Positions 7,531 through 48,823 of a stretch of DNA of 62,722 nt are shown piece by piece. The stretch covers positions 1-62,722 of the forward strand of contig JAFGSB010000025.1 in the NCBI GenBank assembly GCA_016934825.1, given 5' to 3'. Position 1 is the first letter of the stretch; each line of letters starts with the position of its first letter. Below the pieces are notes generated by a model. It had not been told where the DNA came from. It saw only the letters and a program-made list of their open reading frames with translations, and searched no databases. This stretch comes from Candidatus Zhuqueibacterota bacterium (lineage in GTDB: Bacteria; Zhuqueibacterota; Zhuqueibacteria; Residuimicrobiales; Krinioviventaceae). The translations under genes were made by a program, and so were the position numbers.

Positions 7531-7551
7531 CAGTCCTCCAAATTCTTAAGT

Positions 7552-7601
7552 GTTATATCATTACAGGAGTCCGGTTAACGGACACCCGCGTTATATCATT
7601 A
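7552..7601. repeat. Dispersed palindrome copy R1 with flanking 12-nt direct repeats
   Basis: A TCCGGTTAACGGAC core sits at about 7569-7583. Identical 12-nt copies of GTTATATCATTA occur at 7552-7563 and 7590-7601. The right copy overlaps the stop codon of the asd gene. The core belongs to a palindrome family found in other spacers of this window. Confidence 0.7.
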
Positions 7602-8657
7602 AAACATATTTTTTCTAAAAGCCAATTCCGCGTTTAAAACAGAGCCGCCGGCGGCGCCGCGAACCAGGTTATTCGAAAGTGTGATAAAACGGACAATCTT
7701 TTTATCCACTTCAAGACGGCCGATAGCTACAGCCATCCCCTTTGCCCGTTTCGGGGTTCCGATATTCACATCGTATCTGGGCTGCGGCCGGTCAACATCA
7801 TCAATATAAATAACAGGTTGATCCGGCGTTGTCGGCAATCCGGCAACAGCTTCAGGAGTTTTATAATTTTTTATATTTTCTAAAACCGTATTATAATGAG
7901 TTTCGTTTTCCAGTTCAATATGTACGGATATCAGATGCCCAACAATGGTCGGGACGCGGATACAATGGGCATGTACTTCCCAGTCAGCCGGTTTGATCTG
8001 ACCATTTTCAAAGATGCCGCAGATTTTTTTACATTCTGCAAGCAGTTTTGGTTCTTCATTTTTAATATAAGGGATAACATTACCGTTTATATCCATTGCG
8101 GACAGACCCGGATAACCGGCGCCGGATATTGCCTGGTAACTCGCGACGACCATTTTTTTAATACCCATCGGTATAATCGGCAGTAACGCCATTGCCAGGC
8201 CTGTTGTCGTACAATTTGCATTGGTAATAATGTAACCCTTTGATTCTTTTTTCTGGTTATTGATTAAATCAATATGGGGGAAATTTACTTCAGGTATCAA
8301 AATCGGTACATTTTCATCCATACGGTATGAACTCGCGTTCGAGAACACTTTAAGCCCTTTCCGGGCGGCTTCTTTTTCAATATCCACCGCAACGTCCGCC
8401 GGAAGTGCGGAGAAAACGATTTGCACGTTCTTTTTGACCAGGATATCCACATCAATCGGGTCAAATGACATATCGGCAAATTCAGCCGGTATTCCCCCTT
8501 TGACATGCTCTTTCATTTCTGCAAGTTTTTTCCCGGTACGGGCGTCACTCGCGCAAATAGCGGCAAGCTCAAAATAAGGATGACCTTTTAATAATTTTAA
8601 AAAATGTTGACCGACTACTCCTGTTGCACCCAAAACGGCGCATTTCACTTTTTGCAT
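7599..8657 (-). CDS. asd: Aspartate-semialdehyde dehydrogenase
   Basis: 352 residues. Converts aspartyl phosphate to aspartate semialdehyde for lysine, threonine and methionine synthesis. The N-terminal NADP-binding motif is LGATGVVGQHF. The catalytic Cys is C149 in TNANCTTTG, and the later GAGYPGLSAMD segment fits the archaeal/fungal-like branch. GAGGG precedes the ATG. A terminator-type hairpin lies about 45 nt upstream inside the probable leader, suggesting attenuation. Confidence 0.92.
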   Translation of the reverse strand: MQKVKCAVLGATGVVGQHFLKLLKGHPYFELAAICASDARTGKKLAEMKEHVKGGIPAEFADMSFDPIDVDILVKKNVQIVFSALPADVAVDIEKEAARKGLKVFSNASSYRMDENVPILIPEVNFPHIDLINNQKKESKGYIITNANCTTTGLAMALLPIIPMGIKKMVVASYQAISGAGYPGLSAMDINGNVIPYIKNEEPKLLAECKKICGIFENGQIKPADWEVHAHCIRVPTIVGHLISVHIELENETHYNTVLENIKNYKTPEAVAGLPTTPDQPVIYIDDVDRPQPRYDVNIGTPKRAKGMAVAIGRLEVDKKIVRFITLSNNLVRGAAGGSVLNAELAFRKNMF

Positions 8658-8699
8658 AATTCCCTCAATATTTAATTCGAATTTATGTAATCTACATAC

Positions 8700-9522: not shown

Positions 9523-10359
9523 ATGCAGAATCGTTCCGCAGTCATAGGTGTTACATTAGATCATTTTGACGGCTTTACTCCGTCAACATTATTAGGTGGA
9601 TTAAAAATTTTGGGGATAGAATTTGTCGAAATTTCATATTCCATATTTAACGAGGTGGATGATTTCTCCAAAAAACTTGGCGGCATCAGAACCGGATTTC
9701 ATCTGCCGATCATGCACGAAACCGGATGGGATATGTCATGCACAGAGTTCGAAAACGACATAAACGATTTAATAGCCAAAATAAACCGGCACAAAGAAAA
9801 ATTACAAATTCAACATGTTATATGTCATCCACCTGAAAAGAATAAAGTGAAAAATTCAAACGCCGTGTCTGAAAAATTTTTATTCGATAATCTTGGTCGT
9901 CTTGACGTTCCCGTCTATCTGGAAAACACGCCCCATTATCCTCCGGAAGAATTCATTCAATTTTATATGACCGCCAAAAAAGAATTACAGACGAAAATTG
10001 CGGGAATATGTTATGATGCGCCGCATTATTTTATAAGCGGGTATGATCCTGTTGAACAATATCAAAAGATAACCGATAAAATCGGTTGTATCCATCTTTC
10101 GGATTGTGAAAGAAACAGGGATGTTCATCTTCCCTTCAACAGCGGCATCTTGCCGGTGAATCAGATCCTAAAAACAATCAGACACACAAAATTTAAGGGT
10201 TTTGTAACCCTGGAAATATTACCTCATTCGTTACAAGATCTCGACGGCTACATTAACAGTTACCTGAAAACTTTGCGGTTTTTGAATTTTAAAAAATATC
10301 TTTCTACAAAGATACGTTTGTTTTTTTTAAGCCCCTTGATAAAAAAATTTATTAATTAA
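9523..10359 (+). CDS. Sugar phosphate isomerase/epimerase-like TIM barrel
   Basis: 278 residues, AP-endonuclease-2/xylose-isomerase-like TIM barrel. Visible beta-strand ends carry likely metal ligands: GFHLPI near residue 65, HVICHPP near 105, VYLENTPH near 137, a CYDAPHY segment, and late LSDCE and TLEILP. No signal peptide, so cytoplasmic. The substrate is not predictable. Spaced 77 bp after the DUF2752 gene; co-transcription is possible. Confidence 0.7.
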   Translation: MQNRSAVIGVTLDHFDGFTPSTLLGGLKILGIEFVEISYSIFNEVDDFSKKLGGIRTGFHLPIMHETGWDMSCTEFENDINDLIAKINRHKEKLQIQHVICHPPEKNKVKNSNAVSEKFLFDNLGRLDVPVYLENTPHYPPEEFIQFYMTAKKELQTKIAGICYDAPHYFISGYDPVEQYQKITDKIGCIHLSDCERNRDVHLPFNSGILPVNQILKTIRHTKFKGFVTLEILPHSLQDLDGYINSYLKTLRFLNFKKYLSTKIRLFFLSPLIKKFIN

Positions 10360-10942
10360 TTTTACCCTTATCCGATTGAACCCGGAAACTGACCGGTAAA
10401 TTGTGATGAATTTTAAACATATTTTGAAATCAAAAAACATGGTAAAATGATATGTTATAAATCTTTATCAAGAAAAAGCTGTAACTATAAACTGATTAAT
10501 TATAAAAATTTCTTGCATTTATTGTACAGGTAAATTATAATAATAATGAAAGTAATTTAAAATTCAGGGGCTGTTTGATTTTAAATTATTTAATAAATGG
10601 TTTTCTTGAAATCATGCTCACCGTTTTTTTATGGCTGCTGTCAAATAAGATGACGAAATTTAAATCCTTCTCATATTCATTTCCAAACAAAAATTTTCTG
10701 CATAATACATATTTGTATTTATTATTTAATAAAGTCTCTATATCATATATTAAAAAAAAGATGCAACTCGGTGGTTTCCAATCTCAGGGGGTAGGAATTA
10801 ATTTAATTCATTTTAAAAATACTTGTAAAGAATTGCGGGTTTTCTTTGTTTAAAAAATATAAATTTTCATATCTTTTAAAACTGTGGTTTTATTCATTAT
10901 TCAAAATTATAATTTAATGATTCCAAAAATAAGAGGTTAAAA
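10360..10942. other. AT-rich spacer without a supported gene
   Basis: 583 bp with strongly AT-biased sequence. A TCCG-centre-CGGA inverted repeat at about 10371-10385 is a very degenerate relative of the dispersed palindromes. An open frame at 10575-10853 has poor coding character. The 3' end holds the AAGAGG ribosome-binding site of the next gene. Confidence 0.55.
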
Positions 10943-32480: not shown

Positions 32481-33683
32481 TCAATTTACATCCTGATCCC
32501 TCAAAATAAAATCTTTTTTCAGAAAGGTAGAGGTCGAAACAATATCATCGGCTGATAAAAACGGACTGCCGTTATAAATCGCCCGCGAGCAGGCGAGGTC
32601 CATCAGGTGTATTTGCCGGGAGGGCGATTTAAAGGGTAAGTGAGATGACCGGTGCAGACATAATTCAAAACAACTTTCATCAATTTTCAGATCATATTTT
32701 TTTTCAAACCAGGGTTTCAGCATTGTTAAAATTTTAATTACCTCGTTATCATCCGGTTCAGCAAGAGTTATAATTCCGAAACGGCGTTCCATTTCTTTAT
32801 ATTCAATCAGGTTGATATGTTCCGGCAACACGGTCCCGATCAATTTTACACTGCTGTCAAGCGCCGCTTTGAATAAATCCACGGAGCGTTTACAATTTTT
32901 AAAAATGATCTGAATATCTTCGAGAAAAAGAATATTGTTTTTTCCCTCAATGGATATATTGAATATTTTTTTTAATACCTCGTCCGTTTCGGACGGAAAA
33001 TTGAGCCCGGAAAAAAGATCGGCCGTATTTAACTGCATTATTTGCAATTCCGGTTTAAAAGAAGACAATTTTTCCGTCACACCGTATATCAAATTTGATT
33101 TCCCGATCCCGGATTCACCGGTAATAATCGGTGTTTTGGGGTGGTCATATTTCAGTACGGTAGCGATGATGAATTCAATCTCCCGTTCGCGTCCGATTGT
33201 GGGCATACATGATCCGCTTTTGACTAATTCGGTGAGATTGGTCATATAACTTTCTATGCCGGCATCTTTTGTATCCTTTTGTTCTACCTGCGGCTCCTCA
33301 ATATAACTGTTATCTGTTATCACCGGATGGGGCTTGTTTCCCCATAACAGCGCCATAATTTCCTGAATGACCTCGGCTGGCGATTTGCCCCCCAAAGTGT
33401 AAATATTCAAAAACCGCCAGCCGTTTCGGGATGTCACGTATTTAAATACATTCATCAATCGAATATCAGGCCCGGTGTACTTTAAATTTTCATCGACAAA
33501 TACCATAAACCGGCCCATCTTTTTTTCATGGCGTATCAGCAAATTTGTTTTTTCTTTATTAAATTCGGCCGTATTTACCGGAACGGCTTTGAGGATCAGG
33601 GTGTCTTTATCCGAATCGGTTTGTTCAATATCGATGCCGTGATTGAGCAACTGCCGCGACAATTTTGAATTTAATGGTTCCAT
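32481..33683 (-). CDS. Clp-type AAA+ ATPase (Ubl module 2)
   Basis: 400 residues. An N-terminal alpha/beta region (1-140) of unknown fold is followed by a single ClpA/B-D1-like AAA+ module: IGREREIEFII (about 163-173), Walker A GESGIGKS (about 189-196), Walker B ILFLEDIQII, and an arginine-finger-like EMERRFGIITL. A degradation or disaggregation role on Ubl-tagged proteins is inferred from position as the last gene of the operon. The second AAA+ ring and the ClpP-docking loop seen in ClpA are absent, so it is not a standard Clp unfoldase. Confidence 0.75.
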   Translation of the reverse strand: MEPLNSKLSRQLLNHGIDIEQTDSDKDTLILKAVPVNTAEFNKEKTNLLIRHEKKMGRFMVFVDENLKYTGPDIRLMNVFKYVTSRNGWRFLNIYTLGGKSPAEVIQEIMALLWGNKPHPVITDNSYIEEPQVEQKDTKDAGIESYMTNLTELVKSGSCMPTIGREREIEFIIATVLKYDHPKTPIITGESGIGKSNLIYGVTEKLSSFKPELQIMQLNTADLFSGLNFPSETDEVLKKIFNISIEGKNNILFLEDIQIIFKNCKRSVDLFKAALDSSVKLIGTVLPEHINLIEYKEMERRFGIITLAEPDDNEVIKILTMLKPWFEKKYDLKIDESCFELCLHRSSHLPFKSPSRQIHLMDLACSRAIYNGSPFLSADDIVSTSTFLKKDFILRDQDVN

Positions 33684-33725: not shown

Positions 33726-34445
33726 TTATTTGACAACAGCACGCGAGATCGCATTCATTTTGAATTCCTTAACATCCAGATACACCTCTTCAAATTTTAA
33801 TTGTCCGATCATAAAACTGCTGAACAGGTTCAACATGGCGCTTGCCACCGCCAGGTTCGTAAAAGCCAATTGCGGGACCGAGTTGATGAGTGCGGAACAA
33901 CTCACCTCCCTGTTATCGCCCGGATTTATATCATCAGCGTCTAAAATTTCAGGATGAAATGCCGTTAAATTATTGGTTTTGTCCACCCCCCTTTTGCGCC
34001 AGTACATTTGTACATTTCCAAAGGTTCCCGGTTTTTCTTTTTCGACGCCGTCATTGCCCCCGGAAATAAGCACGATATCCCGCATCCTTTTGCAATATTC
34101 ATTGACCAGCTTTCTTGTTTTATGATTGTCCACGGCCAGAAACACCAGGTCTTTTTCCCGGATGATTTCATGAATATTGTCCCTGTTGACGTATAACGGT
34201 AAAGCGCGGATGTTCACACGGTCCCCGTAAAGTCTTGTCAGTTCCATTTCCTTGACAAGGGCTTTTTCGCCGAACTTGAAAAAAGCCATCCGCTCCTTGT
34301 TCGAGCTCTCATATTTGTCGCCGTCGACCAGTACGAGGTTTGTGTCCGTATTTTTACCATACAGGTACATACCCATATATTTGGCTACCGGATCTCCGAT
34401 ACCCCCGAGACCGATTATTTTAATATCAGTTAAAGTTATTTTCAT
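33726..34445 (-). CDS. E1-like ThiF-family adenylating enzyme, short (Ubl module 2)
   Basis: 239 residues. Rossmann nucleotide-binding motif IIGLGGIGDPVAKYM (G12-G17), D41 after the second strand, N/ERM segment (about 49-53) and VFLAVDN (D106) fit the E1/MoeB/ThiF superfamily, which adenylates the Ubl C-terminus. C183 in VSCSALINSVPQL sits where the catalytic Cys is expected and resembles the SC segment of PRTRC-type ThiF proteins. Its start overlaps the upstream JAMM gene by 20 nt. No zinc-binding Cys pairs, a minimal E1. Confidence 0.82.
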   Translation of the reverse strand: MKITLTDIKIIGLGGIGDPVAKYMGMYLYGKNTDTNLVLVDGDKYESSNKERMAFFKFGEKALVKEMELTRLYGDRVNIRALPLYVNRDNIHEIIREKDLVFLAVDNHKTRKLVNEYCKRMRDIVLISGGNDGVEKEKPGTFGNVQMYWRKRGVDKTNNLTAFHPEILDADDINPGDNREVSCSALINSVPQLAFTNLAVASAMLNLFSSFMIGQLKFEEVYLDVKEFKMNAISRAVVK

Positions 34446-35163
34446 AGGGCACCTGCATAAAATCTTTTCTCACCAGATGGATTTGATTAAACCATTTTTT
34501 AGGTACGGGGAAATACGGCTTTCGATAATTTTGTATAATTTCACTTTCATCGAGGGTTATCTTTTCCCCGTTCAACATCATACACGCATAAAAGGACGGC
34601 TTTTGTTTTTGCAGATTCCTGTCCAGGTTACCGATCACGATGTTTAGCGAATCATCGAACCTCGAATCAAGAAAATCCGTATGACTGTAATGTGCGATTT
34701 GCTCGGCATGGGAATGGATATTACCGATTCTCACATATCCGGCGGGCGACGGCACGTTTTTGTATTCCACTCCCAGCGGCGTAAAATACCGGCCGTTTCC
34801 CCAAAAAGCTTCAATATACTGAGGGGGCACAATGATTTTGAACAGTTTTTCCTGCTTGCTGTAATAGATGTGAACAATCGCCTCGGACTGATAATGCTGG
34901 TACACGACCTTGAAAAATCCGACGACTCTCTCGATTAACAAAGTCGGCAATTTCGGTATATTTAAAGTAATGGAATTACCTACCTCATGTTTTGCGAGCC
35001 ATGCCGGACCGTTTTCAACCTGAATGCAGGCCCGGTACAGGTCCATATTTTTGATTAAAAACAATCCGGATGCCGTATACAGGTAATAACAACCAAGGCC
35101 TTTGACCTGCTTTTCATCAAAATTTTCATCCTTGATAAATACAGGCGGAATATGTGATTTCAT
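34426..35163 (-). CDS. JAMM/MPN metalloprotease, canonical motif (Ubl module 2)
   Basis: 245 residues. The JAMM motif is HSH at 150-152, exactly seven residues, then S160-x-x-D163, with E94 as candidate catalytic glutamate: the spacing of active deubiquitinating and Ubl-processing isopeptidases. The N-terminal 90 residues resemble PRTRC-A-like proteins. Expected to mature the module-2 Ubl, which has two residues beyond its Gly, and/or to remove it from targets. AAGGAG precedes the ATG. Overlaps the E1 gene downstream. Confidence 0.82.
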   Translation of the reverse strand: MKSHIPPVFIKDENFDEKQVKGLGCYYLYTASGLFLIKNMDLYRACIQVENGPAWLAKHEVGNSITLNIPKLPTLLIERVVGFFKVVYQHYQSEAIVHIYYSKQEKLFKIIVPPQYIEAFWGNGRYFTPLGVEYKNVPSPAGYVRIGNIHSHAEQIAHYSHTDFLDSRFDDSLNIVIGNLDRNLQKQKPSFYACMMLNGEKITLDESEIIQNYRKPYFPVPKKWFNQIHLVRKDFMQVPYENNFN

Positions 35164-36058: not shown

Positions 36059-36394
36059 TTAATCACGTCCTTTTTCACCGGCCCTTTTTACAAACTCCAG
36101 CCGGTCGGAAATTTTCAAAATATAGTCACTCTTAACCTCTTTACCGTTGACGAGAGCCACAGCGTCGGGTTCGATATTGAGAACCGGCGTCAGCAGGTTT
36201 CTGGTAGAATTGATATCCTGCCCGGCAACCTGAAAAGAGGCGCTGCTGATCCCGCAGCTGACCTGTATACCCAGGTCCGAATCGAGTATCGGATCGGCAT
36301 CATTACTCTTTTTCTTTTTGGGCTTGCCGATCGGCCAGTAATGCTGTTTCTTTTGTTGTTCAATATGTTCCTGAGGGTCCTGAAAAGTTTCCAT
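36059..36394 (-). CDS. ThiS/MoaD-like ubiquitin-like protein (Ubl module 2)
   Basis: 111 residues from the ATG at 36394, chosen because AGGAGG lies 6 nt before it; a longer frame upstream overlaps the ATPase gene and lacks a site. A Lys-rich N-terminal tail (KPKKKKS) is followed by a beta-grasp domain (about 55-108): VALVNGKEV, DYILKISDRLEFVKRAGEKG. The protein ends GEKG-RD, so the Gly at 109 would be exposed only after removal of two residues. A PRTRC-C-like/ThiS-like relation is probable. Confidence 0.72.
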   Translation of the reverse strand: METFQDPQEHIEQQKKQHYWPIGKPKKKKSNDADPILDSDLGIQVSCGISSASFQVAGQDINSTRNLLTPVLNIEPDAVALVNGKEVKSDYILKISDRLEFVKRAGEKGRD

Positions 36395-38094: not shown

Positions 38095-39123
38095 TCACTC
38101 CATACTGTTTGTTTCAAGATTCACAAGGTTATATAAAATATGTTCGACCTTGCCGTCGCGCCAGCCGTACATTTTGGTTCCGGGGTTTGTATTGTGTCCG
38201 TGATTTTTACCGATAACGATCCCGACATGATAAGGCGCTGAAAAAGCCGATTCATGTACCTGCAGATCGTCCTGTGAGAAGAACAGACTGGTTTGCTCCT
38301 GCCCCGGCTTTTCTTCCGTGTTAAAATACCAGGGGTGACTGTGATACCACCCGACGATGATCTTATTATTGTTCCGTTTTGAAAGAATCCGCGATGCTTT
38401 AATAAAGCATTCGGGATTAAACTGAAAATGCGTTATAGAGCTGTTTTCCGTTAAATCCTTATCGTTATCGATTTCACGCATGGATATGTGTCCCGAACAA
38501 ATTAAAAACAAATATTTCGTAACGGTATCCCGGTATAGTTGTCCGGTCAGGAATCCGGCCCTTTCTCTTGATGTATCCTGCATGACATAGTCGATCATTG
38601 ATTTTTCGGTTTTCTGATCCATAAAAACGGCCAAATGGTCCCCTGAAAGATCATATTGACCGTTATACCCTTTGATCATCGAACGCGGCGATTTTTCCGT
38701 TGTCGTCAATTCCAGGCCGGAAAACAAGATCAGTTGATGGTCTTCGGCGTTGTTTTCACATGCGTTTTCATTGACCGATAACCCGTAAGATAAATCCGTC
38801 AGATCTTTGATATATTCGTTGGCCAGCAACTGCCGGGCTAACCGGAAAACAAGCGGTTGAAATACGTCCAAACCGTATTCTTTGGTAAAACCATCACAAT
38901 TCAGTATAAATCCTTTACATAACATGTCCGAATCATTTCTCATAACCGGTTTTAAAACAATTTTTTTATTTATGAGCTTTTTTTTGTTTTCAAGCAAAAG
39001 GCTGAATTTGATATCCCTGGTACAGGACGACAGCATCCAGGGTTCAACAGCAATTTGATAATACTTGTCAGCTTTGCTATCAAAAATGCACAAAGCCAAA
39101 TAATTATTTTTATCTGATGGCAT
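38095..39123 (-). CDS. JAMM/MPN isopeptidase with enlarged loop (Ubl module 1)
   Basis: 342 residues from the ATG at 39123 (AAAGG seven nt ahead); a GTG 48 nt upstream is less likely. The first 175 residues are an unassigned domain. The C-terminal JAMM domain has catalytic E187 (RERAGFLTG), HSHP at 261-264 and S283-x-x-D286. The loop between the second His and the Ser is 19 residues instead of the canonical seven. Expected to process the module-1 Ubl or remove it from targets, zinc-dependent. Cotranscribed with the Ubl, 82 nt downstream of it. Confidence 0.82.
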   Translation of the reverse strand: MPSDKNNYLALCIFDSKADKYYQIAVEPWMLSSCTRDIKFSLLLENKKKLINKKIVLKPVMRNDSDMLCKGFILNCDGFTKEYGLDVFQPLVFRLARQLLANEYIKDLTDLSYGLSVNENACENNAEDHQLILFSGLELTTTEKSPRSMIKGYNGQYDLSGDHLAVFMDQKTEKSMIDYVMQDTSRERAGFLTGQLYRDTVTKYLFLICSGHISMREIDNDKDLTENSSITHFQFNPECFIKASRILSKRNNNKIIVGWYHSHPWYFNTEEKPGQEQTSLFFSQDDLQVHESAFSAPYHVGIVIGKNHGHNTNPGTKMYGWRDGKVEHILYNLVNLETNSME

Positions 39124-39205
39124 AATAAACCTTTGCGTTAAAACAATGTTCTGAATGAGAAGGGAAGACACCCCCGGTTATCTTCCCCCCTCTCCTGCAG
39201 CCTGA

Positions 39206-39493
39206 TCAACCGGCGGATACTTCGGGAGCTATCATAAGATTACTGTCGTTTTCCAGTTTCGCCTGTTGAATCGTATCGGTTTGATTCAGTTTTTCATCAT
39301 CGCGGCCGTCGGGCGCATGGCGAAATAATGAATATGGTGTATTTTGCGGTAAATCCAGAGCCTCCACCGCTTTTCGCGTTATTTCCGATAAACGGGTTGT
39401 GTTCGGCTCCATATCACCGCTGATCTCAGCCCTTTTCTGACCGGTCCAGTCGGTCACCGATAAGCGCGAAACGGATGTTTGTTTTTCACTCAT
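39206..39493 (-). CDS. Ubiquitin-like modifier ending in Gly (Ubl module 1)
   Basis: 95 residues from the ATG at 39493, preceded by GGAGG; the longer upstream frame overlaps the previous gene. The pattern is a beta-grasp: a strand with LSVTDWTGQKRAEISGD, a TTRLSEITRKAVEALDLP helix, YSLFRHAPDGR, then a C-terminal LENDSNLMIAP strand. It ends PEVSAG, with a single terminal Gly and no GG or tail, so it needs no maturation. Position between E2 and JAMM genes supports a conjugated modifier. EsaB/YukD-like folds are an alternative relation. Confidence 0.72.
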   Translation of the reverse strand: MSEKQTSVSRLSVTDWTGQKRAEISGDMEPNTTRLSEITRKAVEALDLPQNTPYSLFRHAPDGRDDEKLNQTDTIQQAKLENDSNLMIAPEVSAG

Positions 39494-39548
39494 AATTAAC
39501 CTCCAGTTTTTATTATGGGTTTTTATATTTATACAGACCTGTTTTCCA

Positions 39549-40427
39549 TCACATATCCCGGACAACTGATAAATATTCTTTGGCGGCATCCTTGTTTGTC
39601 AGTATTTTAACCGGATGTTTTGTGACATACAAAACGGTGAACAGTTTTCTGACGGCCATTTCCACAGTGAAGGTGGATCTCAGAAAAAACGGCACCACAA
39701 TCTGCAGCTCAAGTTTCATATTTTCCCGATCCTGCACAAACACCGGTTTTACGAACTGAAAGTCCCGCAGTGTATGTAACAGGTAGAAAATAACCGCAAG
39801 ACCGGTTTCGGATTCAAAATCGTCTTTTGATAAACTCAGCAAAAATGCCCGGTAAATAAAACAATCGGTACTGTTGTCCAAAAAGATATTAACCTTTTCA
39901 TAAAAACGGGGCGTTTCAATATAAACCAGATATCGATCCTCTTCAATTTTATCAATGGAAAAATCTTGAATTCCGTTATCCGTTATCTCCGCTTCCAGTT
40001 CACTTTTGAGTACCGCTTTGTTGGATACTTTAAACTGTTTCGGGATTACATATTTTGCATGATTCAGCTCTCCGGCCGCCTGAACAAGTGCGGTCTTTAA
40101 GTATTTATAACCTTGAACAAGATCCTGCTCATTATTGACGGGCAACTCACATAAAAGGCGAACACGGTTTTTATCATATAGCACAGGCTTAACCGGGCTT
40201 TTAATAAGATTGGTCATCAAACCGCACAGATATTCCGGGTTTAGACAGTATTGACCGGCATCCCCGTTATTCAATTGCATGGAAAGAAATCCGGACGGTT
40301 TATATCGAACATCCATTTGCACATCCCGGAAATTCGTTGTCGCCTCAGTCTCATTCCTGAGACTGAGAGCGTCGATCGAGCTTAAAATATTCAAATCAAA
40401 ATTTTGCTTCATTTTGACATAATCCAT
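39549..40427 (-). CDS. Unknown protein of the Ubl operon, 292 aa
   Basis: Not recognised. From the ATG at 40427, one nt after the E2 stop codon; a longer frame overlapping E2 is disfavoured. Two similar halves can be argued, each with strands and an ELP or TPRF segment (VRLLCELPV, YLVYIETPRFYEKVNIF), reminiscent of YbjN/CesT-like chaperone folds, but this is a weak impression. No metal site, membrane segment or catalytic motif. Its place between E2 and Ubl in a tight operon implies a part in the same process, for example an adaptor. Confidence 0.6.
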   Translation of the reverse strand: MDYVKMKQNFDLNILSSIDALSLRNETEATTNFRDVQMDVRYKPSGFLSMQLNNGDAGQYCLNPEYLCGLMTNLIKSPVKPVLYDKNRVRLLCELPVNNEQDLVQGYKYLKTALVQAAGELNHAKYVIPKQFKVSNKAVLKSELEAEITDNGIQDFSIDKIEEDRYLVYIETPRFYEKVNIFLDNSTDCFIYRAFLLSLSKDDFESETGLAVIFYLLHTLRDFQFVKPVFVQDRENMKLELQIVVPFFLRSTFTVEMAVRKLFTVLYVTKHPVKILTNKDAAKEYLSVVRDM

Positions 40428-40428
40428 G

Positions 40429-40971
40429 TTAAGATTTAAGGTCAACAACTTTGACGGATACATTTAATTTTTTCCGCCGCAGCGGAATGACACTGATCTT
40501 TTTAATAATGTCGGTATGCTCTCTCAGGTAGACACAGGCATCAAAATTCATGGCATCCGCTTCCGATACATTCATGTTGCGATAGGTCAGTATATTGTAT
40601 AAATGACTTATGATCTCCGTTAACCCGGGTGAAGTCATCAGAAATTCGTGGCCAAGACACACAACGGGAAATTTGGCGTTCGGATGAAAAAAGTCCGGTC
40701 TCAGCAAATTGACTATTTTCAGGTACAGATTGGAATCCAGGCTGTGTAAATAATCTTCCGGGAAATTGATCACCACGCTCAACGGTGCGGTGATCAGGCG
40801 TACTCCCTGCTCATTACTTATGAGAAAACTCATCTCTTTAAATGTGACCAGATAACGAAAAGGCGGATTCCCGGCATCCGGAACGATAAGCACATTGTCA
40901 CTATTTTTTTGCAGTTCCCGTGCTTCGGCCTGCATATTCTTTAAAAATCTTTCAAATATTGTATCAGACAC
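40429..40971 (-). CDS. E2-like ubiquitin-conjugating enzyme (Ubl module 1)
   Basis: 180 residues from a GTG start with AAGGAGG seven nt ahead. Matches the E2 (UBC) fold: strand VVINFPEDYLHS (about 66-77), then HPN at 96-98 followed seven residues later by C105 in VVCLG, and a downstream helix (EIISHLYNILTY). In true E2s HPN stabilises the oxyanion and the Cys accepts the Ubl thioester, so catalytic competence is likely. It immediately follows E1. Shorter than some E2s but complete across the core. Confidence 0.82.
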   Translation of the reverse strand: MSDTIFERFLKNMQAEARELQKNSDNVLIVPDAGNPPFRYLVTFKEMSFLISNEQGVRLITAPLSVVINFPEDYLHSLDSNLYLKIVNLLRPDFFHPNAKFPVVCLGHEFLMTSPGLTEIISHLYNILTYRNMNVSEADAMNFDACVYLREHTDIIKKISVIPLRRKKLNVSVKVVDLKS

Positions 40972-40987
40972 TATTCATCCTCCTTTA

Positions 40988-42151
40988 TCATATGATATAA
41001 TGAATTTTTTCACGGCCGTTAGAAGCGGTAACGATATCATGTTTCGGTAAACCGGTCTGCGCCCAGGTTTTACCTTTAAAGGCTATAGCCTGACGCAGAT
41101 CAAAAGAATTAAAGGTGCCAAGCGGAGATGCGGCGAACTCGGCGCCACAGGCACATTTTTTTTGTGACTCCGGGAATGTTTCAAGTACCCGGAACACATC
41201 TTTTTGATTATGACCGTTCTCACAGCAAATATCTGAGACAAAATTTTTATCAAACAGACTGAGCGTAACATGTTTTGTTCCGAGGTCCGAAACCGCAATA
41301 TCAAAGAGCTGTTGTACGGTTGTTTTTCCCGGATTACCGATGGTTTTCACCGGCCAGGATTGATGCGGAAATACACACTCCTGACTCCGTACAATTGAAT
41401 AACTCTTTAAAATATTGTACTGTAAATCGATAATAATCTCCTGTGATGTTCCGGGTGTGGGTTGATTGTAAATCATGTCCAAACCTTTGGCAGCGGCAAC
41501 AGCGGCTACAAGAGAACCGTTAAAACCGGGTTGATTCGTAGAACCTGTCGTTATCTGTTTTGCACCCAATTCCAGCCTGTTTCTTTTACCGCATGACTCT
41601 TTTTGTTCATTTTCTTTTTGCCTGACCGTAATAACCCGGTTCCGGTCCCAACTGCAGAACAGGCAGGGACCGTTCTTTTGCCGCATATCCAATAGAGTCA
41701 CACGTCCGAAACCTGATCCGCCGTTGCTGATACCCGTATCGACAAGCGGGATATTCAATTGCCGGGTTATGGTATTGACCCGTGTTCGCGTATACCAGGA
41801 ATCGAGACATGTGAAAATCAGACGGCATTTGGCGAATAAACCCGCTCCGACTGCGGCGATATCGGCATGAACGGGCAGCACATGCGCGCCCGAATTGATC
41901 CTGCGCAATATATCAGTTCGGGCAGTTACCTTGGGTCTGCCTAAATCCTGTTCGAAAAAGAACTGGTTGCCCAGATTTTCCACATCCACATAGCCGTTAT
42001 CAATCAGGATCAGGTTAAAACCCAACGGGATTAACTGACGACAAAGCTCCCCGCCGATGTTGCCAACGCCGATCACGGCGATCCATTGACCCGGGGATCT
42101 GTACTTTTCAATACGTGAGTATCGCTTTGTGAAAGAATTTTTGTAAATCAT
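40988..42151 (-). CDS. E1-like ThiF-family activating enzyme (Ubl module 1)
   Basis: 387 residues. Rossmann motif IAVIGVGNIGGEL (G28-G34), D51 in LILIDNG, VENLGNQFFF (59-65), K74 in RPKV, and LDSW (D117) fit ThiF/MoeB/E1. C187 (ESCGKRN) followed by GSLVAAVAAAKGLDMI matches the catalytic Cys and following helix. C163/C166 and a C-terminal set (C309, C310, C333, C335) could bind zinc. The C-terminal 100 residues are an extra domain. It should adenylate the Ubl terminal Gly and pass it to E2. It follows the RING-like gene by 3 nt. Confidence 0.83.
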   Translation of the reverse strand: MIYKNSFTKRYSRIEKYRSPGQWIAVIGVGNIGGELCRQLIPLGFNLILIDNGYVDVENLGNQFFFEQDLGRPKVTARTDILRRINSGAHVLPVHADIAAVGAGLFAKCRLIFTCLDSWYTRTRVNTITRQLNIPLVDTGISNGGSGFGRVTLLDMRQKNGPCLFCSWDRNRVITVRQKENEQKESCGKRNRLELGAKQITTGSTNQPGFNGSLVAAVAAAKGLDMIYNQPTPGTSQEIIIDLQYNILKSYSIVRSQECVFPHQSWPVKTIGNPGKTTVQQLFDIAVSDLGTKHVTLSLFDKNFVSDICCENGHNQKDVFRVLETFPESQKKCACGAEFAASPLGTFNSFDLRQAIAFKGKTWAQTGLPKHDIVTASNGREKIHYII

Positions 42152-42154
42152 TTT

Positions 42155-42685
42155 TCACTTCCTTTTTGGTGCATCATTCGGATCGGGTTTCCAGGACAGT
42201 TCCATTTTTGTGGAATGTCCGCATGTACAGGTCGAATCGTAGGACCAGCATTTCCGGTCATCGGATTCGTGATAAATCAAACGGCATTTCGGATTCGGGC
42301 ATTGTACAACCAGGTCATCTTTATGTAATCGATCCTTACAGCGGGGACATTTTCTTTCTCCGCCGTTATAGTTCATCAAACTCGGAACATCTTCGCTGGT
42401 AAAGTACAGCCATTGATCACGGTACCGAAGTTCGTCCTTGTTTTGTAAAACGTGTAATGTAAAGGGGACAAGCCCGTTTATAACCCATCCCGCATCGGGC
42501 TTTGAAATGATAAACGGGACTATTTTACCGCCCGGTTCCTGTATGGACATTAAGCGGGCCAGTTTGGTTACGACCGATGAACCGAGAATAAGCTGCTGGT
42601 TTGAGTCAAGCCCAAACCAGCAGCCGTTCGTGACGTGCACGAACCCCCACCCTTCATCACCGAAATCATATTGAAAAAAATTCAT
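42155..42685 (-). CDS. FHA-like/RING-like zinc protein, E3 candidate (Ubl module 1)
   Basis: 176 residues. The N-terminal 100 residues have FHA-like features (GWVINGLVPFTLHVLQNKDELRYRD). The C-terminal part is a binuclear treble-clef/RING-like set: C113-x2-C116, C129, C134, H139, C146, C153-x-C155, H157, with the CPNPKCRLIYHE pattern seen in bacterial RING proteins. RING domains bring E2 to substrates; this would be a prokaryotic E3. The link to E1 and E2 genes (3 nt spacing) supports that. AGGTGAG precedes the ATG. Confidence 0.68.
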   Translation of the reverse strand: MNFFQYDFGDEGWGFVHVTNGCWFGLDSNQQLILGSSVVTKLARLMSIQEPGGKIVPFIISKPDAGWVINGLVPFTLHVLQNKDELRYRDQWLYFTSEDVPSLMNYNGGERKCPRCKDRLHKDDLVVQCPNPKCRLIYHESDDRKCWSYDSTCTCGHSTKMELSWKPDPNDAPKRK

Positions 42686-42744: not shown

Positions 42745-42936
42745 TTAGCCTGTCCTTTTATTTTTAAAATAATGATGTCGAAAAGACGCTGCATTTTTTT
42801 GAATCCATTTTAAAGTAAAGCGATTTAAGGATACGGGGCGCCGGTTTGCCGGCAATTGTAAAACATAACCGATATAATCTTTTTTAATCGCTTTAACCTG
42901 AGATTGTTGAAACAGAACAAATTGTTTAGCAGTCAT
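42745..42936 (-). CDS. Small basic hypothetical protein opening the Ubl operon
   Basis: 63 residues from the ATG at 42936 (a longer frame starts at 42969). The C-terminal portion (RFTLKWIQKNAASFRHHYF) resembles a small bacterial family ending in a W..xxA..FR pattern, so it is probably real. No function can be assigned. It lies 59 bp before the RING-like gene on the same strand; the spacing suggests it belongs to the operon or its leader. Confidence 0.45.
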   Translation of the reverse strand: MTAKQFVLFQQSQVKAIKKDYIGYVLQLPANRRPVSLNRFTLKWIQKNAASFRHHYFKNKRTG

Positions 42937-42969
42937 ATTAACACACCCGATTAGAGTAATAAAATCCAC

Positions 42970-43510
42970 ACCTCACAATGACAAAAATTCAAAATATTTT
43001 TTTTTGAAAGAAATACATTTCATTATTTAAATAAAAAAATTTACCTTCTATAAACAATTTAAAAATTATGGAATGAAATTCCTTTCAAAAATATATTTAT
43101 TCCATATCTAATCAATTATAATACATTCATTTTAAAAAGTCAAGCTTTTTTTTCATTTTTTTGAATTTTTTTCACACAGAAAATTATTTTATGTTTTATA
43201 ACTAATTTTAATATTTTCATATAATAAGGCGTATGTAGACAAAAATGCAAAAAAAAATTTTTACAATTAATGCACCTCCCTCCTCTGTTTTTAATTTCGA
43301 AAAATTAAATTAAACAAATTTCTGATATTAATTTTAATGCGGTGTGTACAATATTTCCCCCGTCACGGATCGACTGTTATAATCCGAATGTGCAACTTGT
43401 ATGGATCAAACACCTGCAAAAAAGTTGGCAAAGACCAAGAATTTTAATAAACAAAATTAAAAGCGTTATCGGTAAATGAATCAGGGTGGTTTCAACTTTC
43501 CAAATTTTTG
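42970..43510. other. AT-rich spacer holding the Ubl operon promoter
   Basis: 541 bp between the Ubl operon (minus strand) and the end of the membrane/spermidine-synthase gene (also minus strand). Many A- and T-tracts, several spanning 7-9 nt (for instance near 43000 and 43147). The Ubl promoter must lie near 42950-43150; no clear sigma consensus was assigned. No gene or palindrome copy was found. Confidence 0.5.
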
Positions 43511-46500
43511 TTAATTTTGCCCCAAAATTTTATTCAACTCATTCAGATTCAACCGGGCTTCTTTATGTGCCGGATCAATTTGTATACATTTTAATAGAGA
43601 ATTTTTGCTGTTGAGCAGATCATCCTTTAAATAATATATTATCCCGAGTTGAAAATAGGTCTCCGGAATATTGGGCCAGCACTTTTCGATCGTTTTCAGT
43701 TCCTTCAGCGCCATGTCATATACGCCAGCGTTCCGGTAAATAGAGGCCAGCCGGAAATGCGGAATCGGCAATTGCGGATCAAGTTCAATTGCTTTTCGAA
43801 AAACAGTGACCGCGTCTTCATACCTTTCCAGTTCAAAATAAATCCGGCCAAGATGATCGTAATCATACGCCCGGTTGGATTGTACTTTTATTAAATATTC
43901 AAGTTCAGTCAAAGCCTCGGCATATCGGCTCGTTCTGTAATAAATCACCGAAAGGGCCTCATGGAAACGTGGATCATCAGGAACATAACCCGCGGCGTTT
44001 CGCAAATGTTCGATCATCCGGCCGGGATCATTATCAAAAAACTTGACAATGTTCGCGGCCATAAACTCTTTTTCAGCCATAACATATTTATCGAGTTGAT
44101 TTTTTACAGTTTTGATCTGTTCTGGGTCTTCTCCGATATTATACAGGATAAAATCCTTATCTTTTTTCAGGGTAATCAGATCATGAACAATAGACGGATT
44201 ACGCGCTTTATTAACGACTTTGCTGAATTCGGCCAGCGGTTTGTTATCTGTATTGGCGGGTGTGTCGGACAAATAAGAAATCAAATCCTCACCCCGACAG
44301 GTATATTGCGCCAGCAGGCTGAACGGCGAAACCACGCCGATACTCGATAAATCATCTTTTACATCCTCGTTTTGCAAACGTCGTATAAGATGCCGGTAAT
44401 CTATTTTAATCGGTTCGGGAGTGCCGATCAACAGGACGAATCCCGCATCAACCGTCCATATACTCGTATGCGGGAAAACATCCATAAATGCCCGGACAAG
44501 GGATTTGTATTCACGTTCGGACATCCAGTTGATGGATATCCACTGGCACATCACCCCGTCTTTTGTAAGCCTGTTTTGGCAGAGCCTGTAGAACTCTTTT
44601 GTGTACAATACACCGCTTAACCGGGAGTGCACCGAATTACAGGTAATAACATCATAATTATTTTTATTGACCAGTAAAAAATTACGGCCGTCATCAACCA
44701 CGACATGAAATAAAGGATGCTGTAAAACATCGCGATTCACAGTGGAAAAAAAACGACAGGCCTCGATAACGGTCGGATTGATCTCCACGCAGGTGACGGA
44801 TTCGGTGGTCGGCTGTATCAAAGAGCGGGACGCGACACCCATACCTAACCCGATAATCAGCGAATTTTGGGGCCGCGGATGCAATAACGATGGCAGGTAT
44901 CCCCGCATTTTATCAACCCTCAGGTCTCCTTCTCCGAACGCGGACAACGAACCGTTGATGTATAATTTTTTCTCCCCGTCCACCTCCTGGAAAACCGTAA
45001 CCGCCCCGGATATCCCCTCTTTGTAAAAAAGCAACCGGTCAGCCCGGTTTAACGAAACCAGTTTTTGAAAATACTGTCCCGACGGGATGGTCATAAAACC
45101 CGGGATGAGCAGGACCAAAACAAGACAAACCATACCAATTTTAAAATATAACCTGAGCCGGGGATTAAAAATTAATAAGATCATTCCGAGTATGATATTG
45201 ATAATGGCTATAAAAAAACCGGCCTTTATCATACCCACCAAAGGGACGAGCAGAAAACCCGCAACAAAAGAACCGGCGATTGATCCCGCGGTATCCAGAA
45301 ACCCGAGCAGACCCACTTTGCGGCCGATTTTTTTTATATTTAAAATAACAATTTTACCGGCTACAGGAAAAGTCATGCCCATTAAAGTTACGGGAACGAG
45401 CATAATCAGGAAATAGATCAAATACTCTTTGCCGAGATTCTGAAACCATCCGTCAATATATTCCGGTCTGATCCGCATGAGATAATGGTAAACATAAGCA
45501 AACGCCGGAAGGATCAAAATCGAAAATACCCCGATCAATATTTCCAGGCCGCCGAATATGTTCAACAGATTCTTTTTCAGATCAATCCATCTGGATACCA
45601 GAAAACTGCCCAAAAACAGGCCGAAGATAAAGGTAAACAACACAGTAGTATAAAAATAAATACTCTTGTCATACGAAATACTCAACAAAATCCGGGTCCA
45701 GATGACTTCATAAGCCAGCGCGCAAAAGCCTTCCAGGGCCAAAATCCATAATACCAATTTTACGGTTGCCCGGGAGTGGATATTGGGAGAATGTTCAGGA
45801 TTTGAACTATTGTCCGGGTTTTTTATTTCATTAGCCGGGGAAAAAGCATATACAAAGATCGGAATATTTCTGTTCACAATAAAAACAATCAGGGCGTTAA
45901 GCAGGTTCAGTCCGGCGGCGGCATAAATGGTATTAATATGACCGATTGACTGAACCAGTATAAATCCGGCCAAAAAGCAGCCGGTTAAAGCCCCAAAATT
46001 ATATAAAGCATAAAGACGGCCGACGACGAAACCCAGAGTATTCAGCCTGCGGATAAAAAATTTACTGACAACCGGAAATGTCCCCCCTATCAGTGTGGTT
46101 GGTATTAAAAGGAAAATAAATACCAGGACAAACCGTAAAATGGATTGAATGAAAAAACCGGCCGGCAGGAAACGGGACACGGCAAGAAAAATATGCTGAA
46201 TGAATTTGAGCGTAATAGGGAAAAATAAGGCAAATATGCCGACGCCCAGTTCAATCATTATAAATATGTTTAACGGATTTTTTACCCTGTCGGCGATTTT
46301 ACCAAAATACAAATTTCCAAACGCCAGACCGGCCATAAATGCCGACAGGACGGCACTGACGGATAGTATGGATACCCCGAAAACACCACTCAGCATCCGG
46401 GTCCACACAACCTGGTACACCAGAGCGCTGGTGCCGGAAAGAAAAAAGGCTAAATAAAGTAAAACTTTGAATTGAGAAACACCGGTTAGGTTATTTGTTA

Positions 46501-46534
46501 ATTCCGGTTTGTTGAGCCGATCTGTTTTTTTCAT
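43511..46534 (-). CDS. Membrane/spermidine-synthase-like fusion with TPR tail
   Basis: 1007 residues. N-terminal MFS-like membrane region (about 20-480, two six-helix halves), a spermidine-synthase-like Rossmann domain (about 550-720; LIIGLGMGVASR, VEINPTV, VVVDDGRNFLL), and C-terminal TPR repeats (about 850-1005; AYDYDHLGRIYFELERYEDAV). Such fusions are common in environmental bacteria; the motif GGGxG of true spermidine synthases is altered to GLGMG, so the transfer reaction is uncertain. It follows the paralogous 757-residue gene by 15 bp. Confidence 0.8.
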   Translation of the reverse strand: MKKTDRLNKPELTNNLTGVSQFKVLLYLAFFLSGTSALVYQVVWTRMLSGVFGVSILSVSAVLSAFMAGLAFGNLYFGKIADRVKNPLNIFIMIELGVGIFALFFPITLKFIQHIFLAVSRFLPAGFFIQSILRFVLVFIFLLIPTTLIGGTFPVVSKFFIRRLNTLGFVVGRLYALYNFGALTGCFLAGFILVQSIGHINTIYAAAGLNLLNALIVFIVNRNIPIFVYAFSPANEIKNPDNSSNPEHSPNIHSRATVKLVLWILALEGFCALAYEVIWTRILLSISYDKSIYFYTTVLFTFIFGLFLGSFLVSRWIDLKKNLLNIFGGLEILIGVFSILILPAFAYVYHYLMRIRPEYIDGWFQNLGKEYLIYFLIMLVPVTLMGMTFPVAGKIVILNIKKIGRKVGLLGFLDTAGSIAGSFVAGFLLVPLVGMIKAGFFIAIINIILGMILLIFNPRLRLYFKIGMVCLVLVLLIPGFMTIPSGQYFQKLVSLNRADRLLFYKEGISGAVTVFQEVDGEKKLYINGSLSAFGEGDLRVDKMRGYLPSLLHPRPQNSLIIGLGMGVASRSLIQPTTESVTCVEINPTVIEACRFFSTVNRDVLQHPLFHVVVDDGRNFLLVNKNNYDVITCNSVHSRLSGVLYTKEFYRLCQNRLTKDGVMCQWISINWMSEREYKSLVRAFMDVFPHTSIWTVDAGFVLLIGTPEPIKIDYRHLIRRLQNEDVKDDLSSIGVVSPFSLLAQYTCRGEDLISYLSDTPANTDNKPLAEFSKVVNKARNPSIVHDLITLKKDKDFILYNIGEDPEQIKTVKNQLDKYVMAEKEFMAANIVKFFDNDPGRMIEHLRNAAGYVPDDPRFHEALSVIYYRTSRYAEALTELEYLIKVQSNRAYDYDHLGRIYFELERYEDAVTVFRKAIELDPQLPIPHFRLASIYRNAGVYDMALKELKTIEKCWPNIPETYFQLGIIYYLKDDLLNSKNSLLKCIQIDPAHKEARLNLNELNKILGQN

Positions 46535-46549
46535 AAGTCTGATTTCGAT

Positions 46550-48823
46550 CTAATAGCTGGTTTCAAAGATATTAGGACGATTGGGATTAAAAGCATATTC
46601 CAGTATGGGTTTGTCGTCGGTGTTTAGCGGAAATTTTTTTATATCCATAACCTGGTCGAATTCGGAACTGACAAATATTCTTCTTTTCTCCAGATTATCA
46701 TATGATAGCAGGCCGGATCGGATCGTATCCTCGCGGAATTTTTTGTTACGGGTCAATCGCGCGTTAATTAAATCCTCATTCAGGTCAAAAGGGGTCTGCG
46801 AAGCGACAAAGAAAAGTGTCTGACTGTATGCCAGGTAGGCATCGACGTACCTGAACTCTTTTTTCAAGGATTTAATCAGAATGGGACCATAATCGCCGAA
46901 AAAATGAATACAAAAAAGACCGTCTTTTTTCAATTTTTGTTTGGCCAATTTAAAATAATCGACCGTATAACAGGATGCGCTGCCGGGCAGGTCGGATTCA
47001 CATACGTTGGAAGAGATAATATCATATTTTTTATCGGTATGTTTCAGATAGTACCGGCCGTCTCCCGAATAAATTTTGGAATTCGGCAGATTATCGACAT
47101 CGTTATTAAATTCCCTGAATAATGAAACCGCTCTGATAACTCCGGGAACGATCTCTACCGTTTCGACCATATTTATCGAATCATATTCCGCGAAAGCGCC
47201 GGTGGTGACCCCGTAACCGAGTCCGACAACCAAAACATCTTTCGGATTTTTGTGAACAAGCAGCGGTATTTGGGCCTGCAATCTCTGTACAGCCGACGCC
47301 GCGGTATTGCCGATCGGAAAAGTAACGATTGTATTATCAGTATATTGATAGTAACCCAGTTCACCGGTATAAACGGTCACCAGCGAACTTGAATCTTCGT
47401 AAAAATATATGAGATCCATTCCTTTTCGTTCCCACGGATATTTTTTAAAATGAACTGCACAAAATATCATGATAACAATCAAAGCCGCCGTTGTAAAAAC
47501 GGAAAAAAGTTTTCGGCGGGCTGTTGTCCTTTCCCAGTGAACCGCTAAAAACCGGTGTCCCAGGACAACGGATAAAACGGATATAAACAGCATGCTGTAA
47601 AACGTCCCCAGAGCCGGAATGAGTACAAACGCAGTCAACAGCGCCCCAGTTATACAACCCAGCGTATTCAATGCATAAGCCTTACCGATGCTGATGGATA
47701 TGGCCCTGATGTTTTTGTTCAGATATTTTATGACGGACGGAAATATGGCGCCGAATGAAAAGCTGGGGATAATCATGATTAAAAAGGCTTCTGAAAATCT
47801 GACAATAATATACTGCCAGTGGACATTTAATTTTAAAGAACTTTCAATAACAGGAATTAAAGAGACGAAATCATTAAAAAATAACAGGGTCAGAAAAGTC
47901 GTAATCCCGATTATAATCTGGAAAAGGGAAAAAACAAACGGTTCCCTGCCGGTTTTATCGATTATCCTGCCGATGACCAGACTGCCGAAAGCGATACCGA
48001 AAATAAATGCGGTTATCATAGTCGTCGAAGCAAAGACCCGGTTGCCGATAATAAACGCCAGCAGTCGCGCATAAATGATTTCATACGAAAAAGAGGTGAA
48101 TCCCGAAATAATAAAAGCAATGGTGAGAAAATAAGCCGTAGCGGGATAAAAATTTGACTGTTTGACCTGTATTGCAGAATTATTTTCAACGGGATGAACT
48201 CTTTTGCTCAAAAAGGCGAGCAACAATCCAAGCAGTCCGATCACCAGGGTTATCGTCACTGCGATAAAGGTTGTTTTACTGAGTCCGAATAACCGGATGA
48301 AGAAAAAACCGGTAACAAAACACCCGATACTTGAGCCTAATGTATTAATACCGTACAGGCCGCCGACCGTTAGTCCGGCTTTGGCTTCGCCGGTATAAAA
48401 ATGTTTGGTCAGCACCGGCAAAGTGCCGCCCATTAAAAATGTCGGCACCAGCAGGATAAAAAATGTGATTAAAAACCGCTGTAAAATCGGGATTATATTC
48501 TCATTGTTCAATACGCCGACCGGCGCCAGGTCCTTGATAACGTAATTGAATAAAAAATAAAGAACCAGGCATGTGATACCGATGCTAAGCTCGAGCAGTG
48601 CGTACAGCAACAATGGGTTGTCATTTTTTTTTGCGACTCTGCCGAACACATAACTGCCCAGGGCCAGACCCGCCAGGTAAGACGCAAAAACCACGGACAG
48701 GGTATAGGTTGTATTTCCCAAAATAAAGGAAAAATATTTTATCCAGAGGATTTCATAGACAAGGGCTGAAAAACCCGAAGCGATAAAAAGAAAAACCAGT
48801 ATACTATTGGTAAAGAATTTCAT
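46550..48823 (-). CDS. Membrane/spermidine-synthase-like fusion
   Basis: 757 residues. MFS-like membrane region in two halves (about 1-470; repeated SGFSALVYEILWIKYFS and ISGFTSFSYEIIYARLLAF openings) and a spermidine-synthase-like Rossmann domain (about 520-660; VLVVGLGYGVTTG, VEIVPGV, YSGDGRYYL). It lacks the TPR tail of its downstream paralogue. The tandem pair probably acts together; the substrate is unknown. Polyamine synthesis is a guess based on fold only. Confidence 0.8.
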   Translation of the reverse strand: MKFFTNSILVFLFIASGFSALVYEILWIKYFSFILGNTTYTLSVVFASYLAGLALGSYVFGRVAKKNDNPLLLYALLELSIGITCLVLYFLFNYVIKDLAPVGVLNNENIIPILQRFLITFFILLVPTFLMGGTLPVLTKHFYTGEAKAGLTVGGLYGINTLGSSIGCFVTGFFFIRLFGLSKTTFIAVTITLVIGLLGLLLAFLSKRVHPVENNSAIQVKQSNFYPATAYFLTIAFIISGFTSFSYEIIYARLLAFIIGNRVFASTTMITAFIFGIAFGSLVIGRIIDKTGREPFVFSLFQIIIGITTFLTLLFFNDFVSLIPVIESSLKLNVHWQYIIVRFSEAFLIMIIPSFSFGAIFPSVIKYLNKNIRAISISIGKAYALNTLGCITGALLTAFVLIPALGTFYSMLFISVLSVVLGHRFLAVHWERTTARRKLFSVFTTAALIVIMIFCAVHFKKYPWERKGMDLIYFYEDSSSLVTVYTGELGYYQYTDNTIVTFPIGNTAASAVQRLQAQIPLLVHKNPKDVLVVGLGYGVTTGAFAEYDSINMVETVEIVPGVIRAVSLFREFNNDVDNLPNSKIYSGDGRYYLKHTDKKYDIISSNVCESDLPGSASCYTVDYFKLAKQKLKKDGLFCIHFFGDYGPILIKSLKKEFRYVDAYLAYSQTLFFVASQTPFDLNEDLINARLTRNKKFREDTIRSGLLSYDNLEKRRIFVSSEFDQVMDIKKFPLNTDDKPILEYAFNPNRPNIFETSY

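Follow-up and report, generated by a model that had tools for sequence, protein, structure and literature searches.

The window analysed here, positions 1 to 62,722 of contig JAFGSB010000025.1 from a Candidatus Zhuqueibacterota bacterium (assembly GCA_016934825.1), carries on its minus strand a near-gapless run of twelve genes (42685 down to 32481), including candidate genes of a ubiquitin-like conjugation system and a proteasomal-type AAA ATPase (Table 1). The first six genes (42685-38095) are intact open reading frames (ORFs) separated by 1-82 bases, and they lie in the order given in the original prediction, which was made from the sequence alone: a RING-like protein, an E1, an E2, a 292-residue protein, a ubiquitin-like protein (Ubl1) and a JAMM isopeptidase (JAMM1). 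The predicted lengths also agreed once the starts of the last three had been set at 40427, 39493 and 39123, with a GTG at 39171 as an alternative start that lengthens JAMM1 to 358 residues. The locus had been taken to end at the JAMM gene; the run extends over six more genes. The proteasome-type AAA ATPase and a further Ubl module had gone unnoticed, as had the connection with Pup genes that relatives show.

In a Pfam scan of the operon, ThiF, JAB and AAA scored above their cut-offs and the RING match fell just below, while no match was obtained for the E2, Ubl1 or the 292-residue protein. Profiles were built from loci in other phyla with the window sequences excluded (window-free profiles), and their significance was judged over all ORFs of the window. 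Those for the RING, E2, Ubl, JAMM and AAA proteins each had the corresponding gene as their sole significant match, and the E1 profile, besides the window E1, also matched the second ThiF gene (5e-6). Chance resemblance is ruled out, because profiles from other phyla single out the corresponding ORFs; this non-circular comparison bears out the predicted gene identities, the E2 and RING included. Homologues in relatives exceed the Pfam cut-offs for UQ_con, YukD (the Ubl domain) and Prok-RING_1.

The E1 is of ThiF type with a catalytic Cys; its best PDB profile match is UBA7 (5e-23), and G28xG30xxG33, D51, K74, D117, C187 and the Cys pairs are invariant in the alignment. The E2 has the HPN at 96-98 and the C105 ascribed to it, and both are invariant across bacterial E2 alignments, except that HPN is absent from locus L073. 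A profile of E2s from yet other bacteria (A14) matches the UBE2A/Rad6 PDB structures at 1.6e-14 and the window E2 at 7e-14, placing the 180-residue protein inside, not outside, the E2 fold, so that profiles, HPN and C105 together identify an E2 of UBC fold with an active-site Cys. The RING-like protein is assigned to the RING domain by its eight Cys/His ligands, their C4HC3 pattern and the window-free profile, with Prok-RING_1 under its cut-off; its top PDB profile matches are RING E3s, at a weak 0.03. The ligands C113, C116, C129, C134, H139, C146 and C155 are conserved in the alignment, and C153 is shifted by one in the window sequence. The suggestion that a RING partner is rarer in such operons was not supported, since RING is common in the relatives compared, and both L041 and L042 exceed the Pfam cut-off for Prok-RING_1; many other E1/E2/Ubl/JAB loci contain zinc-finger ORFs or RING-profile matches.

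Ubl1 has the length and terminal Gly foreseen for it (..EVSAG), and its profile match and the alignment of this Gly with homologues identify it as a Ubl with a C-terminal Gly. A Gly near the C-terminus is kept in nearly all of 37 Ubls compared: many end in (E/T/D)AG, some with 1-6 further residues (RR, SR, RGAGG, R), and another group ends in RGG with or without a tail. This pattern would fit trimming of the tail, where present, by the JAMM encoded alongside. JAMM1 is recognised as a JAMM protease by its metal-site residues E187, H261, H263, S283 and D286, invariant in the alignment, and with these every catalytic residue named beforehand was found. In Chloroflexota variants at L042, a YukD-type Ubl is fused to the E2 N-terminus (9542-10456) and a GntR-type DNA-binding domain to the E1 (7027-8664); the E2-fused Ubl domain, homologous to Ubl1, exceeds the YukD Pfam cut-off.

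Between the E2 and Ubl1 genes lies the 292-residue protein. Its comparison with the ~290-residue counterparts gave 0.16 in hhalign, yet the proteins are colinear. An AlphaFold2 model of it was poor (predicted local distance difference test score, pLDDT, 47), and a Foldseek search with this model gave no match under 0.001; a VIA-align Z of 9.4 to a YbjN-type protein hints that the C-terminal half possibly adopts a YbjN or type III secretion chaperone-like fold. An ending in a dead E2 domain, prompted by NKDAAKEYLSVV, was rejected (hhalign probability 0.1).

The seventh gene encodes the AAA ATPase. The pup_AAA model is its best family match, OB_C scores 35.6 bits against a cut-off of 23, giving an OB-then-AAA arrangement, and its profile aligns to Mpa structures in one stretch. 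Its score of 275 bits is below the TIGR03689 equivalog cut-off of 504.75. The C-terminal GQYL docking end is absent from the window AAA, which ends in AYCDAILD; actinobacterial ARCs end in GQYL, and the ARCs of genomes G772 and G836 do not, ending in NII. The single PF00227 match in the window genome (G000), where a 20S core was sought, is an HslV beside HslU. PafA and Dop searches gave no match in G000 or in G015, and six other genomes matched.

To place the operon among relatives, an E2 profile was searched against 400 Chloroflexota genomes, a broad set of 388 genomes including the window's own and 291 genomes of one further phylum, and related E2s were found in 14, 11 and 48 of them, respectively. 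The neighbourhoods fetched around these E2s mostly contain E1, Ubl and JAMM genes and often a RING-like protein. The order RING, E1, E2, ~290-residue protein, Ubl, JAMM and AAA recurs, whole or in part, in seven further genomes from three phyla: L072, L103, L102 and L104 belong to one, L074 and L101 to another and L073 to the window's own. It is complete in L072, L074, L101 and L103 (with the Ubl identified manually in L101 and L103); L102 starts inside the E1 and L104 was read from the E2 onward only. L073 has diverged, its zinc-finger protein and ~290-residue counterpart being shorter and uncertain and its E2 lacking HPN while keeping the Cys. A scan of genome contigs with the E1 retrieved one locus, L003, and scans of viral contigs with the E1, the AAA and the L003 E2 retrieved no relative. 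Just upstream of the E1/Ubl/E2/JAMM operon of L040 (3396-7992) lie dynamin-like GTPase, ADP-ribosylglycohydrolase-like and CAP-domain genes, and same-sized genes occur again in L041.

In the two other phyla, a Dop-like gene stands directly after the AAA in all six loci found. It is followed by a Pup-like ORF ending in G[EQ] and a PafA-like gene in L072, L074, L101, L103 and L104, and the contig of L102 ends inside Dop. The NCBIfam matches, all below the equivalog cut-offs, are 1e-82 (Dop) and 6e-63 (PafA) in L072, and 4e-74 and 1e-61 in L074. No family model matched the small ORFs, which are designated Pup-like by their C-termini and place. Because Dop and PafA adjoin the seven-gene cassette in other phyla, with Pup-like ORFs between them, genes predicted to serve tag-directed unfolding travel with it. 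Genomes G836 and G772 also have a true 20S locus (ARC-Dop-PrcB-PrcA-PafA; L124 3111-9876, and L129), separate from the hybrid cassette. As for other 20S-family matches, G579 has only an HslV beside HslU, G015 one of HslV size, and G1003 and G1010 one each that looks like HslV on cursory view; the search of G792 gave no match.

In the window, five genes of a second module follow the AAA gene. ThiF2 comes nearest to ThiF genes that neighbour JAB genes on plasmids (L006, L007), and the curated PRTRC cut-offs are not reached (PRTRC_A, 25.0 of 101.8 bits; PRTRC_ThiF, 36.4 of 144.75 bits). In L073/L123 of G015, from the window's phylum, a double AAA resembling ClpA/ClpB, a further JAMM and a second ThiF protein are encoded after the AAA. 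Upstream of the operon, a promoter-like site precedes the RING gene, and promoter-like sites overall are not enriched relative to shuffled sequence. The leader between them is very AT-rich (G+C fraction 0.27) and holds a 74-codon minus-strand ORF (42745-42969). Further upstream (43511-48823, minus strand), two large membrane proteins are encoded in tandem; both have spermidine-synthase-like domains, and one also has TPRs. The G+C fraction of the operon (0.43) is near that of the remaining window (0.41), and there is therefore no sign of recent foreign origin. Synteny of the operon flank with the same-genus genome G037 was not found, and hence the insertion site is not definable.

Table 1 Features of the operon in the window, and Pup-system-like genes at related loci
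Feature	Coordinates	Strand	Evidence
RING-like protein, E3 candidate, 176 aa, C-terminal C4HC3 zinc motif	42155..42685	-	Prok-RING_1 9.5e-6, just below Pfam cut-off; window-free profile 2.3e-20
E1, ThiF-type, 387 aa, catalytic Cys candidate C187, C-terminal zinc-ribbon-like Cys pairs	40988..42151	-	ThiF 1.5e-25; window-free profile 8.3e-39
E2, 180 aa, HPN 96-98, C105	40429..40971	-	Window-free profiles 3.1e-32 and 7e-14, sole window match
292-aa protein, positional counterpart of ~290-aa proteins in relatives	39549..40427	-	Same operon place; window-free profile 0.044
Ubl1, 95 aa, ends ..EVSAG	39206..39493	-	Window-free profile 4e-9; C-terminal Gly aligns with homologues
JAMM1 isopeptidase, 342 aa	38095..39123	-	JAB PF01398 25.3 bits (cut-off 22.5); window-free profile 5e-29
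Mpa/ARC-like proteasomal-type AAA ATPase, 556 aa, OB domains and AAA	36421..38091	-	TIGR03689 pup_AAA 1e-81; window-free profile 5.3e-105
Small protein, 111 aa, Ubl2 candidate	36059..36394	-	Place between AAA and JAMM/ThiF genes; no match in family scans
Second-module protein, 275 aa	35210..36037	-	No meaningful match in family scans
JAMM2, 245 aa, HSHAEQIAHYSHTD motif	34426..35163	-	PRTRC_A 1.2e-5, far below cut-off; motif read from sequence
ThiF2, E1-like, 239 aa	33726..34445	-	ThiF 5.6e-19; PRTRC_ThiF 3.3e-9, below cut-off
ClpA-D1-like AAA ATPase, 400 aa, possible E2-like N-terminus	32481..33683	-	ClpA 4.9e-24; Prok-E2_E 0.056, not significant
Promoter-like site TTGACT-17-TATAAT, upstream of operon	43115..43143	-	Consensus scan, 11/12 matches, best in region
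Dop-, Pup- and PafA-like genes directly downstream of cassette	L072 850-4743; L074 14115-17754; L101 11317-14926; L103 6892-10956; L104 6054-9601		

With its intact genes, catalytic residues, homologies and conserved seven-gene order, the operon probably encodes a bacterial system for ubiquitin-like conjugation that has a proteasome-type unfoldase of its own. Covalent conjugation of Ubl1 to proteins is the most likely function, as judged from the gene families, and the activity, chemistry and substrates proposed here are predictions. Ubl1 ends in an already exposed ..AG, and in several relatives the JAMM would trim a tail of 1-6 residues. The E1 would adenylate the terminal Gly of the Ubl, take the Ubl onto C187 and hand it to C105 of the E2, and the RING protein would promote its transfer to lysines of target proteins. 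Tagged proteins might then be recognised by the Mpa/ARC-like AAA ring and unfolded or extracted, and JAMM1 would take the Ubl off and recycle it. Because no 20S proteasome was found in the window genome, the ring would act without proteolysis or pass its substrates to another protease. Any role of the 292-residue protein and of the second module is a prediction as well; lying where other phyla have Dop/Pup/PafA, the second module may provide this ring with another modifier.

Several points weigh against this explanation. Coupling of the AAA to the Ubl, its weak point, is suggested by the conserved neighbourhood. In the AAA tree, the hybrid group is backed at 74/78 only and the window AAA is a long branch; the window E1 is likewise a long branch in the E1 tree, unresolved and not joined to the Pup-linked clade. 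An AlphaFold2 model of the E2 from three sequences was unusable (pLDDT 35), and the homology of the 292-residue protein, not established by sequence (profile 0.044, hhalign 0.16), rests on position. Moreover, the window genome is a 95% complete draft, so that absences are provisional, and the sampling of phyla for relatives was limited.

Rather than handling proteins tagged with Ubl1, the AAA could serve the downstream tag system, Pup elsewhere and the second Ubl module here, with Ubl1 being regulatory, non-degradative and not feeding the ring. That the AAA is nearest to pup_AAA, that a Dop-like gene directly follows it in six genomes and that many E1/E2/Ubl/JAMM/RING operons have no such AAA would all accord with this. 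Yet the AAA adjoins JAMM1 in the window and in L073 as well, where Pup genes are missing and the genomes show no PafA, and we regard this alternative as rather unlikely. It is improbable that the two modules are independent operons lying end to end by chance, with the Pup genes elsewhere as chance neighbours likewise: although the genes of module two differ between the window and L073, the run of twelve genes is near-gapless, and the Dop-like gene follows the AAA in 6/6 loci of two other phyla. An anti-phage conjugation system working in the manner of Bil or type II CBASS is distinctly improbable. Defence systems do occur among related E1/E2/JAB operons (PMC11354881; PMC10097602), and the E1 matches PADLOC E1-E2 models weakly, but no Bil-specific E1 match was obtained, the E2 is without the CEHH pattern of BilB, no other defence gene was found save weak mad2 matches to two neighbours, in their methyltransferase-like part, and the partnership with Pup/Dop/PafA suggests proteostasis. 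A sulfur-carrier or cofactor pathway, with ThiS or MoaD and ThiF or MoeB, is hardly credible: the E1 does score with ThiF/MoeB models, but far under the equivalog cut-offs (59.8 of 275 bits), E2, RING and JAMM stand in the same conserved order, and the operon contains no thiamin or molybdopterin genes. The original prediction thus held in its gene identities and in preferring conjugation to cofactor synthesis, and was not supported on the rarity of RING and the end of the locus.

Tagging of the ubiquitin type and tagging of the Pup type are regarded as having arisen separately, each coming to feed a proteasomal ATPase. We lean slightly towards a joint proposition: that the operon exemplifies a class of bacterial protein-quality loci, in which a full RING-E1-E2-Ubl-JAMM set is wired to a proteasomal-type unfoldase shared with an exchangeable second tag system, which is Pup/PafA/Dop in two phyla and another Ubl module in the phylum of the window, and that this class is so far undescribed. 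A conserved operon of this kind, with the Pup enzymes added in relatives, would allow direct inquiry into the origin of the coupling between tagging and unfolding, and into whether a single ATPase can read two tags unrelated to each other. As no 20S particle was found in several of these genomes, they would also test the function of the ring without a proteasome. The main sections of an account of Pup gene neighbourhoods name no E1/E2/JAB partners (PMC2588565). Our literature search found no account of these genes joined to proteasomal ATPase or Pup genes, and the 2011 paper of Burroughs, Iyer and Aravind (Mol BioSyst 7:2261) may contain one.

Among known systems, E1, E2 and JAB types in bacteria have been described (Iyer 2006, PMC1779556). 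Bil (BilABCD) likewise has an E1, E2, Ubl and JAMM; BilA consists of two Ubl domains and BilB has a CEHH motif (PMC11354881), whereas the window has a single-domain Ubl, an E2 with HPN and C105, a RING protein and an AAA. Membership in Bil was rejected, as the positions +6, +8 and +13 from C105 are L, T and T, not E, H and H, and Ubl1 has 95 residues and a single β-grasp domain instead of two. PRTRC plasmid cassettes resemble the second module in its PRTRC_A-like JAMM and PRTRC_ThiF-like protein, but the scores are far under the cut-offs and no ParB-related gene was recognised among the operon genes. The Caldiarchaeum-type archaeal ubiquitin operon is not known to include an Mpa-type AAA or Pup genes. 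This operon shares with the window a ubiquitin-like modifier, an E1, an E2, a small RING protein and a JAMM (Rpn11-like), and differs in being archaeal and in having far more eukaryote-like genes (PMC5654768, PMC6043591). The Pup-proteasome system (Mpa/ARC, Pup, PafA, Dop and 20S) is similar in its homologous AAA and in the Dop/Pup/PafA homologues directly after the cassette in other phyla, whereas in the window genome neither PafA nor 20S was found and the tagging genes are of ubiquitin type. Bacterial RING-E1-E2-YukD-like Ubl-JAB operons were reportedly described by Burroughs and colleagues through comparative genomics. RING/E1/E2/Ubl/JAMM operons are thus a known bacterial kind, and the window shares with those operons the same five activities, the Prok-RING_1 and UQ_con families and relatives in Chloroflexota and on a cyanobacterial plasmid, while adding the ~290-residue protein, a proteasomal-type AAA in fixed order and a second tag module.

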